64,000 nucleotides of DNA from Dillenia suffruticosa (lineage: Eukaryota > Streptophyta > Magnoliopsida > Dilleniales > Dilleniaceae). The stretch spans positions 2,123,001-2,187,000 of the forward strand of contig JAVTVX010000027.1 of the NCBI GenBank assembly GCA_033439265.1. The letters run 5' to 3'. Below, piece by piece: positions 6,985-62,406 of the stretch (positions are counted from its first letter, which is position 1; each line of letters begins with the position of its first letter). The notes beneath the pieces were generated by a model. That model did no database searches and was not told the origin of the DNA. It worked only from the letters and a program-made list of their open reading frames with translations. A program made the position numbers and the translations under genes.

Positions 6985-7465
6985 TGTTGGATTTAATCGC
7001 GCATGCGGAAGCGAGAAATTAAATGGATCGGAATTTTTGGGATAAATACCTCGATAGGGCGGTCTCCAAAATTCACCGTGTCGCGATATCCCTCGAACGG
7101 ATCGCACGGTCGGATGGTGATCACGCAATCGAACCACCACCTTAAATCCACGACGCCTCAAGCCTCGAGTTCGGTGAATCGTCTGACGATGGGAGATTTT
7201 CCTACGCGAAAATCTCCATCCCTCTCTCTATTTTCTCTCTCTAGAGAAGTGCAGAACCCTAGTCACCATAATCTCCTTCTCATGGCTGCTCTCCACACAC
7301 AAGGTAGGAATCACTTTCTCAAATTGAATCAAGAGAATAATGCCATTAGGGTTAAGTTTTGGGAGTTACCCAAAATGCATGGTTAATATTGGTAAGTAAT
7401 AATGAGAGTCACCCCATTATCTCATTCTTACCAAAATGCCCCACAATGGGCATAAATAACCTACA
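6985..7465 (-). repeat. left LTR (3' LTR of the copia element)
   Basis: 481 bp, aligning without gaps to 13463-13943 with four substitutions: near the TG end, in the ACCTTAAATCC/ACCTCAAATCC word, in CTAGTCACC/CTAGCCACC, and in GAGTCACC/GAGTTACC. The ends are TGTTGG and CCTACA. A 127-codon open frame on the plus strand recurs identically in both LTRs and is not a gene. Confidence 0.95.
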
Positions 7466-13462: not shown

Positions 13463-13943
13463 TGTTGGAATTAATCGCGCATGCGGAAGCGAGAAATTAA
13501 ATGGATCGGAATTTTTGGGATAAATACCTCGATAGGGCGGTCTCCAAAATTCACCGTGTCGCGATATCCCTCGAACGGATCGCACGGTCGGATGGTGATC
13601 ACGCAATCGAACCACCACCTCAAATCCACGACGCCTCAAGCCTCGAGTTCGGTGAATCGTCTGACGATGGGAGATTTTCCTACGCGAAAATCTCCATCCC
13701 TCTCTCTATTTTCTCTCTCTAGAGAAGTGCAGAACCCTAGCCACCATAATCTCCTTCTCATGGCTGCTCTCCACACACAAGGTAGGAATCACTTTCTCAA
13801 ATTGAATCAAGAGAATAATGCCATTAGGGTTAAGTTTTGGGAGTTACCCAAAATGCATGGTTAATATTGGTAAGTAATAATGAGAGTTACCCCATTATCT
13901 CATTCTTACCAAAATGCCCCACAATGGGCATAAATAACCTACA
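13463..13943 (-). repeat. right LTR (5' LTR of the copia element)
   Basis: 481 bp, 99.2% identical to 6985-7465 with no gaps. This LTR would carry the element's promoter. It is followed by the right TTAAC target duplication at 13944-13948. Confidence 0.95.
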
Positions 13944-15755
13944 TTAACCATTAAAAATACACAACTTCATGATCATAAATTGATGTCGAAATTAAGTGAT
14001 TGGTATGAAAACTATTCTATGATTGCTATTCTATTAGTATATTATATAAAGGAGGGAGGTGGGGGGGGGGGGGGGAGAGAGAGAGTTTAAAATTTTGTAT
14101 TTGTATATAACATACCTTATGCTTTTTGGTATTTGTATAGTATTAACATATTTCTAAATTATGCTTTTTGGTTTTTTTTTTTTTTTTGGTTTTCTTATTC
14201 TTACGTAGCTTTTTTTTAGATCATGGTATTCCTTGAAATATATTTTCGGAAAATAGGAAATTCATTTTATAAAATTTTCTGCCTATGGAAATATTTTGTT
14301 TTCCATTATTCGGAAGGTTATTCCATTGGGTTCTCTTTTCTTACGAACTTTGAAAAAAATATATATCATTCAAGATATTTATCTCGCTTTTCCTTCACTT
14401 TTAGGAATTATTTTCCTAAATTTAATAGATTTTATGGAAATAAATAAATATAGTAAAATTTTGTTATTATTGTTTTATTTTCATCTTAAAAATTTTTGGC
14501 AATCGAACACAACTTAGGGCTATTACAATTATTTTTTCTTGAGGTACCCGTGGTTACTCAACCTTTTGACTAAGGACTCGAATTTGACTCGTAATTTGGA
14601 CACGTAGCAAGCTACATTGGGAGACTCCTCATCCTCTGAAGGGAGATCTCCAAATGGGTCGGTTTGGATTAATTGGAATGAAGTCTCAAACATTGGGAGA
14701 TCGTGGAACTGTCCCATGTAGACAAAAAAAATTATTTTCCTTGAGGTGTCAAATAATTTCTAGAATATTGTTTTACTATTTTTAAGTTCTAACTTCCATT
14801 TTGCTGGAATTCCAAAAAAGAAAAAGAAAAAAAGAAATTCATCTTAATGATCAATTTTTGGCAGCCACTTCAAATATAGAAAAGGGGTCATGGCCAGCAA
14901 GCATTTCTTATAATTATTTGCCAATAAACTTTCAACTCTCATTCCCCATTCAAAGGTTTGCAAAGACAATGTGTCACGTAACTCGTTAAATGTTGTTTGG
15001 GCATTTTAGTTATGCTGCCATGAATTTTCAAAAAAAGAAAATTATAAATACTTTTTCCTTTTTATTATATTTTTAGAATAAATCATCGTCATTCATTAAT
15101 AATTTTAACTAAATCTGGTTTAAATCAAGTTAAATTCTAAAAAAATAAAATTCTATTGATTTTTATTTTTATTATACACAAAATTAAAATTTAAAAATTT
15201 ATTTAAAAAGTTCGGATACACACAAGGATGTACAACCGGATCGGCAAACCGACCATGTCGTACCATACGAACCGAAAATAGTTTGGTTTCACATGAAATT
15301 CGCGCAATCTAGCTTTATTCTATGTTACTTGTTTAAAATGAGATTCATGAACCAACGTCTAAAATGTGAATTCCTGAAATTTGTCTGAATTTAGTAATTC
15401 CTTTAATTATTCTAAACATTCTTGCCTTCGCCGACCATAATGAAATTCATGCTCGAATTCAAGATTTCAACGACCCATTAATGTGCAATTTGCTATTAGT
15501 TTCTCAATTCAAGTTCTACAGACTAAAACTAGAATTACTAAAAATATTAAATTATTAAAGCGATTAAAATTTAATATAATAATTTTTTTTTGCGCAACAA
15601 ATTTAACACCAGTTTTTATTTACGGCCGAGATTAAAAATTTATATCAAGCGAATGAATATACATTTAAAATTATATTTTAAAAATGAATACAGTAATTTA
15701 TTAAAAAATAACAAGTTTTTAAAATTATAATTTGTAAAAATATATTATATATAAA

Positions 15756-15809
15756 ATCCAGGGTGACTTGTTACAAATTATATATAATTTGTAACAAGTC
15801 ACCCTGGAT
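15756..15809. repeat. perfect 54-bp palindrome without spacer
   Basis: Two 27-base arms, the left one starting ATCCAGGGTGACTTGTTAC, are exact reverse complements and meet at a central TA with no loop. Pairing stops at the next base on either side (A at 15755, G at 15810). The flanks are (TA)-rich on the left and poly-T on the right. No second copy was noticed in the window. Confidence 0.95.
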
Positions 15810-16684
15810 GTGATATATTTTTTTTTTCTTTTTTTGAGGTTTGATCATCGATAAAATCATATTATTCGAAATTGGTCAAATTGCCCATTAAAGATATCTT
15901 TGCTTTTGGCGCGCCATTTCATTGATAGCTTGCCATCGCCATACCTTAAATGTGGGTGAGCTGGGAAATATCTGTTTCTGATGGGGCCTGGAGAGGGCCT
16001 ATGCCTATGACTCCTTTTTTTTTTGTTTTTGTGAAACATGCCTATGACTCCATTAGTAGTGAAAATTGAGGGAAAAAGTTTTTTTGAGGTTACAACCATG
16101 TGAAGTGTACTCATTTGACATCGTGTCTCCTTCCTACTAAACTCCCCTGAGTGCAATCATCGGATCGGATCGGCTTGATTATAAATTTTAAATTCGAGAT
16201 ATAAAAATAAAAAAGTAGAATTTAAAAAAATCAATGTCATAAAAAGTCTCACAATAATTAATCTAGATTAATTGAAGCAATCCAGACAAATAAAAACCCA
16301 AAAAAAAAAAATCATATCTCCTTTCTTATTTCACCCGAATCTCTTTCATAATGCTAAGAGAGATTTTCCTCATTTAATACTACCACCAAGAAATCTTAAT
16401 GCTCCTTTTCATGATGAAGCAACAAAGTTTAGAAATCCAAGCATTCTTGGTGAGATACAACATAGAAATGGTTGACATCAATTGGGATTAGTTCGGCCTC
16501 AATTCAAGTAAATTTTGTTCTGTTCATTTTTTACTGAATTTTTTTTAAATTAAATTTGGTTCATACAGAACCCACATGAACGATGTGATTTGATTCATGA
16601 AATCATATGCATCAATATAATTAAAATTTTTAGACTAGATTCGCAAACTAAAAATAATAAAAATTCAAATATAAAATAAGATAA

Positions 16685-39460: not shown

Positions 39461-39625
39461 AAAATGTTCTCTACAGATTTTTTTTTTTTTTTTTTTTGTA
39501 CAATGCCTCTTATAGTGTTCTATGTATATGGCTGTGCCTTGCAAATCACGGACACGGCCGAATAATACCATCAATCCTTGAGGTGGGGCAGGCCACCATA
39601 AGGCAAAGAGCGTGCAAGACCGGTA

Positions 39626-40370
39626 CGAGTAATGTTCTGAATTACACCAAAAAAAAATTTTAAATGACACAGAAAGAAAAATAATTCCGAAAATAATTCC
39701 GAAAATAATTCCGAAAATAATTCATCTTCATCGCGTTTTGAACTCGCGACACCATGTGACAGTACGCGATTGGCTGAAGGCCACGTATCGCGTCTTCAAA
39801 ACATGACAAGTCGCCGCCCACGACGATCCTCTCTGCCTCCCTCGCCCACCCGCCCACGGCGATTTCTCTCCCTCCCTCCCCTGCCCATTGCTCCGCTTCG
39901 CTCCCCCTCCCTCCCCCCGCACCTCTCTCCCTCCCTTCCCCCTCCGCCCGCGGTGCTACAACTCCCTCCCTCCTCCCCCCTGCGGCCCCTCTCTGGCCCC
40001 CTCTCTCCCTCCTCCCCTCTCCCTCCCTCCTCCCCCCGTGGCCCCCTCTCTCCCTCTCCCTGGCCCCCTCTCTCTCACGCGGCCCCCGCGGGTGGAGGGA
40101 GAGAGAGGGGGCCACAGGGAGAGCGGAGCGGAGCAACGGGTGGGGGAGGGAGGGAGAGAGGATCATCGCGGGCGGCGGAAGGAGCGGCCGTCGGGCATTG
40201 CGGGCGGCAGCTTGTTGTGTCTTTAAGACGCGATACGTAACCTTCAGTCAATTACGTGCTGTCACGTGGTGTCGCGGGTTTAAGACGCGATAAAGATAGG
40301 TTATTTTTAAAATTATTTTCCTCTCCGGATCATTTATTTTATTTTTTTTATATAATTCGGAACATTACTC
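39626..40370. mobile_element. foldback transposon 1 with G+C-rich hairpin core
   Basis: The element is essentially one inverted repeat of about 745 bp. The outer ends GAGTAATGTTCTGAATTA (left) and GAGTAATGTTCCGAATTA (right, reverse complement) pair. The pairing continues inward through CGCGACACCA.GTGACAG, GAAGG..ACGTATCGCGTCTT and a pyrimidine-rich left arm facing a purine-rich right arm. The flanks AGACCGGTA (39617-39625) and AGACCGGTC (40371-40379) look like a 9-bp Mutator-type target duplication, but AGACCGGTCT is itself palindromic, so they could instead extend the inverted repeat. No transposase. The long open frames in the core (up to 168 codons) are low-complexity by-products. Confidence 0.85.
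39680..39722. repeat. 12-bp tandem repeat in the left arm of foldback 1
   Basis: ATAATTCCGAAA occurs three times in a row, followed by a partial unit. The opposite arm has only one matching AATTATTTTC stretch, so the repeat expanded in one arm only. Confidence 0.9.
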
Positions 40371-40385
40371 AGACCGGTCTCTCTC

Positions 40386-58515: not shown

Positions 58516-58524
58516 ACTTCGGTG

Positions 58525-59546
58525 GGGTTTTGTACCGAAATAACTAAAAAAAATAAAAATTTTTAAAATAACTCAAACGAAAAAATATTTCCGTTTCTAA
58601 CCCATATTTATCAAAAGTTGAAGACGCGACACCCCGCAACATACTGTGTAGCGTTTACAACCCACGATATACTGTATCGCGTTTTCAACCAGTGACAAAG
58701 TCTAGAGAGAGAGGAATCCGCGGGGGAGGAAGAGAGAGGGGAGGAGAGCGGCAAAGAAAGGTGGGGGGTGGAGGGGGGAGGGGGGAGGACCGCGGCGGGG
58801 TGCGGAGGGGGGAGGGAGAGAGACAGAGGGGAGGGCCGCAGAGGGAGGAGGGAGGGAGAGACAGAGGGGAGGGCGGCAGGGGGTCCATCGGGAGAGGAAA
58901 AGAGAAAAAGGGGAGGAGTGCGGCGGGGGGAGGAGGGAGAATGAGAGAAAGATGGGAGGGGCGCGGTGGGGTGCGGAGGGAGGAGGGAGAGAGAGAGAGA
59001 GAGGGAAGGGCCATGGGGGGCGGAGGGGGAGGGAGAGAGGTCGCCGCGCTCCTCCTTTGTCTCTCCCTCCCTCCCCACGCGAATCCCCTGCCGCCTTCCC
59101 CTCTTTCTCTCCCTCCCTCCCCCCTCCGCCTCCCCGCGGCCCTCCTCCCTCTCTCTCTCCCTCCCTCCCCCCTCCGCACTCCGCCGCGCTCCTCCCCTCT
59201 TTCTCTCTGTCCCTCCCCCGACGGACCCCCCGCAGCCCTCCCCTCTTTCTCTCCCTCCCTCCCCCCCTCTCTCTCCCTCCCCCCTCTGCACCCCGCCGCG
59301 ATCCTCCCCTCTCTCTCCTTCCTCCTGCCGCCCTCCTCCCTCCCCATCCGCCCCCCGCCGCTCTCCTCCCCTCTCTCTCTCCCTACCCCGCGGACTCTTC
59401 TCTCTCTCTAGACTTTGTCGCGGGTTGAAAACGCGACACAGTGTGTCACGTTTCAACTCCCGACAAATATGAGTTAGAAACGAAAATATTTTTACTTTTG
59501 GGTTATTTTAAAAAAAAATTTTTTGAGTTATTTCGGAACAAAACTC
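58525..59546. mobile_element. foldback transposon 2 with G+C-rich hairpin core
   Basis: A 1022-bp element made of two inverted arms that meet near 59.04 kb. Ends: GGGTTTTGTACCGAAATAAC on the left and, reverse-complemented, GAGTTTTGTTCCGAAATAAC on the right. Pairing runs on through TTTCGTTTCTAAC.CATATTT, ATCGCGTTTTCAACC, GACAAAGTCTAGAGAGAG and CCGCGGGG into a purine-rich left and pyrimidine-rich right arm. Flanks ACTTCGGTG (58516-58524) and GCTTCATTG (59547-59555) agree at 6 of 9, consistent with an old Mutator-type duplication. No transposase; open frames up to 281 codons in the core are compositional. Its ends and inner modules resemble the element at 39.6 kb. Confidence 0.88.
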
Positions 59547-59644
59547 GCTTCATTGTCTCTTAATGCGAACGCAACTTTGTATTTATTTATTGTTCTTTTC
59601 TTACCTAGATCAACCAATATTTTGAATAATATAACCCAAACTGC

Positions 59645-61035: not shown

Positions 61036-62406
61036 GTTTTCTATTGTTTTAGGGTTCTAATGTCCACCATTAATTAATCTCTTAATTATTTTCAGATGTT
61101 CTGAAATAATCTTTAAATGTGTGTTGTTTACAGTTTTGTTTCCCTGCCTTCTGATTAGGAACATTCAGCCCTAGTCAACTTTTGTTGCCCTGACTTACTG
61201 GGTTACAAGAATGGGTAACCATCTCACTTGACTTCTTCTTTTTCTTCTCTTATTTGTTTTTTTCTTTTTTGCCTATTGTGTTGATCTTCTTGCTGTCTGA
61301 TAGTTGAGTTTGTTGCAGATTCAAGCAATGGCGTGAGGTTCCCATCCTACGTGGTAACGACGAAAGTGCCACAGACAGGGAAAAGGAAATAGGTTCTGCA
61401 GTTGCTAAGTACCACTTGTTTGCTCTTTCACAATTTTGATTCCACCTTCAGGATTTTTACTAGCTAAATTAGCTAACACCAGTTAGTTATTCTTGTTTAG
61501 CTACTTGTGTTTTAATCAGGGTAATAAGTTTTTGGCAGGAGTTGACCCAACGCATATGATCGTCTCTCTTGCACCTATTAAAAAGTGAGGTTTTCATGAA
61601 AATGATTCAACTACTTCTGGACTCCCAAAAAAGAATGAGGTTATTGTATGGCTTAGATTGATTCATTGCCAGGTAAGCAGGTTTTATTGCTGTATTCATT
61701 TCACCTCCAGTTTCAAGTTCCCACATTCTTTTTTTCCCAGTTTCCCTATTTCTGTAGAGACAACTTTATGAAGCAATTTGAAAAGTGAACTGGTTTTTTC
61801 TGCTTTTGATGGCTCACCTGGCAGCACTAAAGGTACAATTCTTGCATTGATACTGCTATTCTTTCCTGGATAACTGCTTATATGTCATGTTGAGTGGTAA
61901 AGCGATGTTATTATTACTTGGCTTTTGCGAGGTTTTATTCCAGGATGTATGGGTTAGATCAAGGAATGCTGCTCGCAGGGATGACACTGTCTGGATCTTA
62001 GAGTTATGTTTAGACTTATAAACATGTCCTGAAAATATTTTGGGCTTAAACTTGTATTGGTCTCTCTCCTTCATCTATTCATTCCATTCTTTTCATTGAA
62101 CCTAATGCCTACTTTGCTTCTATTTATCATGGGAATTACCACTCTAGTTAAGAATATTAAAGGAATTCGGAATTTTAATATGTTTCATTTTTCTAATATC
62201 TTGTTGATTGTAAGATGTTCATCTTGACTTGATTTTTGAAATGGTTGACCATTGCCTGCAAAAGCATTCTTGTGTACATGTGCTTGTATGGTTTTGTGTT
62301 TAACATGATACAGTTGGTTGTTAGATGTTCTAGATTGCTTTCGTGTGTCCTATAGAGATAATGAATTGTCTTTTTCTTTTGGTTGATATTAAAAAAAATA
62401 TTTGTA

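Follow-up and report, generated by a model that had tools for sequence, protein, structure and literature searches.

Known foldback Mutator-like elements

Foldback Mutator-like elements (MULEs) with modular ends are already known. As far as the available text of the respective papers goes, they comprise MuTAnT, FARE, Muta1 and Tm1, and the plant mobile domain (PMD) is likewise known in MULEs. MuTAnT of Medicago truncatula is a foldback MULE of typically 200-300 bp which targets TA microsatellites and has a Jittery-like transposase (PMC4486113, accessible part). Muta1 of Aedes aegypti is a MULE classed as a foldback TE, with a long terminal inverted repeat (TIR), subterminal repeats and 8-9 bp duplications, and many of its derivatives moved in trans in yeast (PMC5225508, accessible part). 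In the PMD-C MULEs of several grasses and Amborella, the PMD is fused to the transposase (PMC5418596, accessible part).

The window, the whole stretch of 64,000 nucleotides analysed here, is C27:2123001-2187000 of the 596-Mb Dillenia suffruticosa assembly (37 contigs). It contains two elements, E1 and E2. We consider it likely that E2 is a non-autonomous foldback-type MULE belonging to a scheme with two kinds of halves, in which the mixed alpha-beta form would be parental and the foldbacks would be copies of one half. Read inward from the end, alpha halves are pyrimidine-rich and beta halves purine-rich.

Like MuTAnT, the present elements are foldback MULE derivatives with modular TIRs and a related autonomous MULE; the duplications of MuTAnT measure 9 nt. 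The alpha and beta halves and the GA/CT core found here are, however, not mentioned for MuTAnT in the accessible part of PMC4486113. FARE of Arabidopsis, known to us through its description in the same text, is also a plant foldback with long palindromic ends and is now classed among the MULEs. Unlike the E2 family, Muta1 is an animal element with 12-bp tandem repeats in place of 23-bp palindromes; it further differs in its 504-aa transposase, and the PMD is not mentioned in the available sections of PMC5225508. Tm1 of root-knot nematodes shares composite foldback-like TIRs, 9-bp duplications and the presence of both MITE-like and transposase-bearing members, but differs in its 13-15 bp tandem repeats, its Phantom-type transposase and its animal host (PMC3169594, accessible part). 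MULEs with multiple long TIRs are comparable in that rearranged MULE ends still transpose, although their extra TIRs are mostly tandem and the available text of PMC3310237 reports no inverted half-dimers. The probable partners of E2 resemble PMD-C MULEs in combining a MULE transposase with the PMD. Here, in contrast, the PMD lies in separate downstream frames, and foldback derivatives go unmentioned in the accessible part of PMC5418596. We found no description of alpha/beta half-dimers or of these 23-bp palindromes in the open-licence literature searched.

Structure of E2

The features of E2 are as follows, without strand unless + or - is given:

58525..59546: E2, 1022 bp, beta-beta foldback MULE derivative without transposase
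58516..58524: left flank, presumably half of a degraded target duplication, ACTTCGGTG, matching the right flank at 6/9 on visual comparison; weak by itself
59547..59555: right flank, presumably the other half of this duplication, GCTTCATTG, on visual comparison; weak by itself
58525..58544, +: left terminal repeat, GGGTTTTGTACCGAAATAAC
59527..59546, -: right terminal repeat, GAGTTTTGTTCCGAAATAAC, read inward on the - strand
58609..58631: outermost palindromic module of the left arm, differing from the pattern at 4 positions
58647..58669: palindromic module, left arm, no. 2
58675..58697: palindromic module, left arm, no. 3, TATCGCGTTTTCAACCAGTGACA
58703..59040, +: left core arm, purine-rich (GA) when read inward; outer bound approximate
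59041..59396, -: matching core arm, pyrimidine-rich on +, purine-rich when read inward; outer bound approximate
59416..59438: palindromic module, right arm, an exact match to TGTCGYG-N9-CRCGACA
59444..59465: module, right arm, outer, 1 base short; motif match at 59451-59465, the rest by eye

The sequence-only reading had described E2 as a 1022-bp inverted repeat with defined ends, CGCG modules and GA/CT-rich arms, and this description holds, with arms that surpass dinucleotide shuffles. The outer 180-bp arms align with a score of 136 against a maximum of -4 in 300 such shuffles. The core, a low-complexity GA/CT-rich tandem repeat which switches between purine and pyrimidine at element position 517, also pairs beyond composition (score 270, largest dinucleotide-shuffle null 178). 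The arms are nevertheless imperfect, with 85% identity over 130 bp. E2 itself is old and lacks a gene of its own.

Elsewhere in the window, identical 129-aa frames lie at 6997-7386 and 13475-13864, 6478 bp apart, and may represent a pair of LTRs belonging to a single retrotransposon. A small snap-back repeat at 15738-15827 consists of two 45-bp inverted arms, 87% complementary and without spacer. The tRNA scan of the window found none.

Comparison with E1

The second element has the following features, none of them stranded:

39627..40370: E1, 744 bp, alpha-alpha foldback relative of E2
39617..39626: left target duplication, AGACCGGTAC, 8/10
40371..40380: right target duplication, AGACCGGTCT, 8/10
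39729..39751: palindromic module, left outer
39786..39808: palindromic module, left inner; spacing to the left outer one 57 bp
40213..40235: palindromic module, right inner
40270..40292: palindromic module, right outer; spacing to the right inner one 57 bp

The outer arms of E1 pair with a score of 128 (largest null in dinucleotide shuffles 24) at 82% identity over 130 bp. Its core is lopsided, and the pairing score of -76 merely equals that of the best shuffle, -76. At window positions 39678-39723, in the left arm, a 12-bp unit, AAAATAATTCCG, is perfectly repeated 3.8 times; it resembles the terminal word.

E1 and E2 share their plan and their type of terminal repeat. Their assignment to one family had been proposed from the ends, the A/T segment and the CGCG modules, in all of which the two agree. 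The alignment suggested at that stage bears the proposal out: over the terminal 150 bp, each of the four end pairings is better than all 1000 dinucleotide shuffles. At shorter lengths some pairings are weak; that of the two left ends, for example, is equalled by 41 of 1000 shuffles at 18 bp and by 47 of 1000 at 40 bp. An 18-bp end motif (up to 3 mismatches) has 8 matches in the window where 0.73 are expected, namely the four E1 and E2 ends, three overlapping internal 12-bp repeats of E1 and a site at 62001. Chance or composition as an explanation is rejected by the motif count, the 150-bp alignment and the arm-pairing shuffles. Both cores are tandem-repeat-like, with opposite polarity.

Relatives, ends and target duplications

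As a genome query, E2 gave 802 first-look candidates, with 136 matching pieces among the 40 scored; E1 gave 623, with 158 matching pieces among the 40 scored. A 22-bp end pattern occurs at 63 genome sites with up to 2 mismatches (reversed control 0), and a looser pattern at 184 sites when matched exactly (control 2). The consensus end of the related elements is GAGTnnTGTwCsGAwwTAA. Filtering on paired ends and on a flanking duplication yields 35 distinct relatives, whose duplications measure 8-11 bp; the set derives from loci L001-L089, several of them overlapping, and contains only pairs above a duplication score, so that it does not represent a rate. The duplications are exact in 23 of these 35 (13 of 9 bp and 10 of 10 bp), and a control with mispaired flanks gave 3 passes in 1190 combinations. 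L071 and L072, a near-copy, share flanks, which leaves 34 of the 35 elements independent. E1 (8/10) and E2 (6/9) themselves fall below the cut-off of this set.

Long TIRs combined with duplications of 9-10 bp are the signature of MULEs. The same is stated in the accessible part of PMC5225508. In the present family, the terminal inverted repeats exceed about 100 bp, the target duplications of the relatives measure about 8-11 bp, mostly 9 (8/10 in E1 and only 6/9 in E2), and autonomous relatives with a PF10551 transposase carry the same kind of ends. Since the relatives have 9-10 bp duplications, E1 and E2 are assigned to the non-autonomous Mutator-like foldback elements, and we regard this assignment as strong. 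Ends of the PIF/Harbinger or hAT type were set aside on the duplication sizes of these superfamilies, the duplications here being 9-10 bp.

Among foldback (FB-type) elements nearly all of the element consists of two inverted arms. This is so in E2, whereas in E1 it applies to the outer arms only, the core being lopsided. Repeat modules lie inside the arms. Beside the bound for MITEs (below about 800 bp, without coding sequence, in high copy number), E1 measures 744 bp and E2 1022 bp.

Two relatives deserve separate mention. In L039, two ends separated by 6818 bp were considered as those of an autonomous element and rejected, the frames between them looking like Ty3/gypsy by eye; at L039:1041-7858, E2-type ends enclose this Ty3/gypsy-like retrotransposon (by eye), which we take to be nested within a foldback element. 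L026:1129-1450 is a shorter derivative of 322 bp with the same ends and four TGTCGTGACTTGAAGTCACGACA-type modules, near the L091 type described below.

Palindromic modules

Near each end, at a distance of about 80-140 bp, are 23-bp quasi-palindromes of the pattern TGTCGYG-N9-CRCGACA. Allowing up to 3 mismatches, at least one module is present in 64 of 68 halves and at least two in 47 of 68, for a pattern derived from the same elements in which it was counted. Among shuffled halves, a mean of 0.54 and at most 3 contain a module, and none contains two. The spacing is phased: 28 bp in all 34 pairs of beta halves, and 57 bp in 11 of 13 pairs of alpha halves, the remaining two being 52 and 54 bp. 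L072 was left out of the module count and spacing and kept in the duplication set and the half trees.

With up to 1 mismatch, TGTCGYGNNTTSAANNCRCGACA occurs at 2897 sites in the genome (control 0). The first 50 listed come from contigs C1, C2 and C4 only and are not independent of each other. At the three free position pairs, 41, 39 and 31 of these 50 sites are complementary, against shuffled means of 24.8, 18.1 and 17.7. Across the 32 different sequences among them, complementary pairs number 23, 23 and 16, values equalled by 36, 0 and 54 of 2000 shuffles, respectively. The two sides of the palindrome thus tend to change together, most clearly for one position pair.

Two kinds of halves

Foldbacks consist of two halves of one kind, and mixed elements of one of each. 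By half type, 35 elements comprise 24 beta-beta, 5 alpha-alpha and 6 alpha-beta, in a sample drawn with E2 and E1 as queries (33 of the 35 duplication-filtered relatives plus E1 and E2). The right half of E1, whose measured purine fraction is 0.48 in a lopsided core, was labelled alpha by hand. L026 and L028, with another module type, were left out of the half trees.

The two labels are also distinguished by the terminal sequence. In a tree of the first 130 bp, which exclude the core, they part in one change (support 91/90), and at 180 bp a single branch divides them (97/93); in either tree, 0 of 500 label shuffles are as low. The beta halves of L056 and L060 sit nearer the alpha side. When autonomous ends are added, alpha stays a single group (100/99) and beta encloses the autonomous ends. 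Within one element, the arms of beta foldbacks have an identity of 0.846 against 0.804 between elements, and those of alpha foldbacks 0.839 against 0.799. Arms of the same foldback are barely more alike than arms of different ones; the duplication is therefore old, or happened once or a few times.

The mixed elements L041 (10/10), L046 (9/9) and L060 (9/9) have their own duplications. With L046 as query, 881 candidates were found, and the pieces of the 40 scored form 40 clusters. Fifteen are alpha-beta, a share biased toward the type of the query; five are alpha-alpha, including E1, five beta-beta, one is beta-beta with an extra alpha end and 14 have a single recognisable end. E2 is not among these 40 clusters. 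Five further alpha-beta copies have duplications of 8/9 (two), 7/10, 6/10 and none. For L095, L096, L097 and L099, the half labels follow from how each half is oriented relative to the L046 query.

Probable autonomous partners

The sequence-only reading had proposed a search for an autonomous MULE, and the genome does contain MULEs with related ends. The PF10551 search gave 737 candidates, of which 150 were scored and listed; 15 of the 150 listed matches each sit in a frame of exactly 870 aa, 11 of these 15 being equal in score. One 870-aa frame belongs to an 8117-bp element at C24:932695-940811, with the target duplication GCAAATCGCC (10/10) and the ends GAGTGATGTACC and GAGAAATGTACC. It contains the MULE, MuDR DNA-binding and SWIM domains above cut-off, and a PMD frame of 293.6 bits accompanies it. 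The element, represented by loci L100, L094, L090 and L093, looks intact and carries tandem TTCCGCG-N9-CGCGGAA palindromes at both ends besides the 23-bp modules. The L091 element (6297 bp, duplication CTTTACTCA, 9/9) has an 858-aa frame with MULE and SWIM domains above cut-off and the MuDR DNA-binding domain slightly below it, and PMD matches in two frames. The L092 element (6328 bp, duplication 10/10) has broken frames, and one of its ends is identical over 19 bp to the commonest E2-type end. Modules in L091 and L092 are of the TGTCGTGACTTCAAGTCACGACA type, those of the C24 element are TGTCGCGGGTTGAACCCGCGACA.

None of the six autonomous ends falls with alpha; each is placed on the beta side. 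In a tree of 84 termini, from which L098 was left out, both C24 ends fall inside a group of 14 rows, 12 of them beta halves (100/99), and the four L091 and L092 ends form a separate long branch on the beta side. Against E2-type halves the C24 ends reach best scores of 120 and 123, the null maxima being 37 and 42 under the weak control of 100 mononucleotide shuffles. Judged by sequence, these MULEs of 6.3-8.1 kb, with transposase and PMD frames, related ends and 23-bp modules, are the probable autonomous partners of the family. No autonomous source of alpha turned up among the ends of the three delimited MULEs. Read inward, L091 and L092 show a mild pyrimidine excess at the transposase-proximal end (purine fraction 0.39 and 0.34, against 0.51 and 0.49 at the opposite end), and in the C24 element a CT-rich stretch follows the modules. 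This gives no more than a hint that the pyrimidine-rich tract of alpha-beta elements may derive from a 5′ leader.

Origin of the foldbacks

We propose that the transposase of the MULE-PMD group recognizes the ends and modules of E2-like elements, which would then move in trans by cut and paste. The parental form would be alpha-beta: a MULE derivative in which a pyrimidine-rich tract spans the middle. Copying of one of its halves as an inverted duplication would have produced foldbacks, which then spread; template switching or hairpin-capped repair might, as a guess, account for the copying step. E1 and E2 types would accordingly be homodimers of opposite halves of one asymmetric derivative, and the direction would run from alpha-beta to foldback. 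A more specific version is possible, and we hold it tentatively: one asymmetric derivative would have given both homodimers by a regular half-copy step and not by capture, and the ends would be read through phased 23-bp palindromes (28-bp period, sides changing together), so that symmetry, or a hairpin extruded from the DNA, might matter to the transposase no less than a fixed word.

The alpha-beta form could instead be secondary, arising by recombination of two existing foldback families or from two nearby copies transposed as a composite. We find this rather doubtful. Alpha-alpha and beta-beta elements are each common, the latter the more so (24 of 35, in a sample drawn with E2 and E1 queries), and the beta halves of alpha-beta elements mostly form small tree groups of their own, all of which agrees with a secondary origin. 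Yet L041, L046 and L060 combine their own duplications with a continuous pyrimidine-rich tract, and 15 of 40 clusters from the L046 query are alpha-beta, a count biased toward the query type.

The sequence-only reading saw one family with interchangeable hairpin cores; in this model a single end type exchanges its cores freely, and GA/CT simple-sequence hairpins would have been captured independently. That the cores of E1 and E2 differ is confirmed, including the polarity of these tandem-repeat-like tracts, and MULE derivatives with heterogeneous interiors are known from Muta1 (PMC5225508, accessible part). Free interchange itself is unlikely and was not upheld: in the 35 elements examined, core polarity goes with the type of the terminal half. 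It tracks the sequence of the outer 130 bp, no label shuffle out of 500 being as low, and the module spacing. Moreover, clusters of all three types, alpha-alpha, beta-beta and alpha-beta, come up with the alpha-beta query, each named end facing outward.

That E1 and E2 represent unrelated MULE families whose likeness comes from convergence and A/T content is highly improbable. Some of their short-end pairings are weak, and alpha and beta halves have a mean identity of 0.747 (end-free alignment), but 0 of 1000 shuffles match the 150-bp comparison in any of the four pairings, the modules are common to both and mixed alpha-beta elements occur. The idea that the host keeps the hairpin for making small RNAs or microRNAs has equally little to commend it, for although the whole of E2 pairs end to end as RNA (-733.5 kcal/mol, without shuffle control), the Rfam scan of the window yields no family at gathering score and transposition explains the many copies with target duplications.

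Implications

How foldback transposons form is poorly settled. With both putative homodimers, the asymmetric form and intact-looking MULE-PMD elements sharing ends in one genome, the direction and the mechanism of this process would become testable. The 23-bp palindromes provide a concrete candidate binding site for the MULE-PMD transposase.
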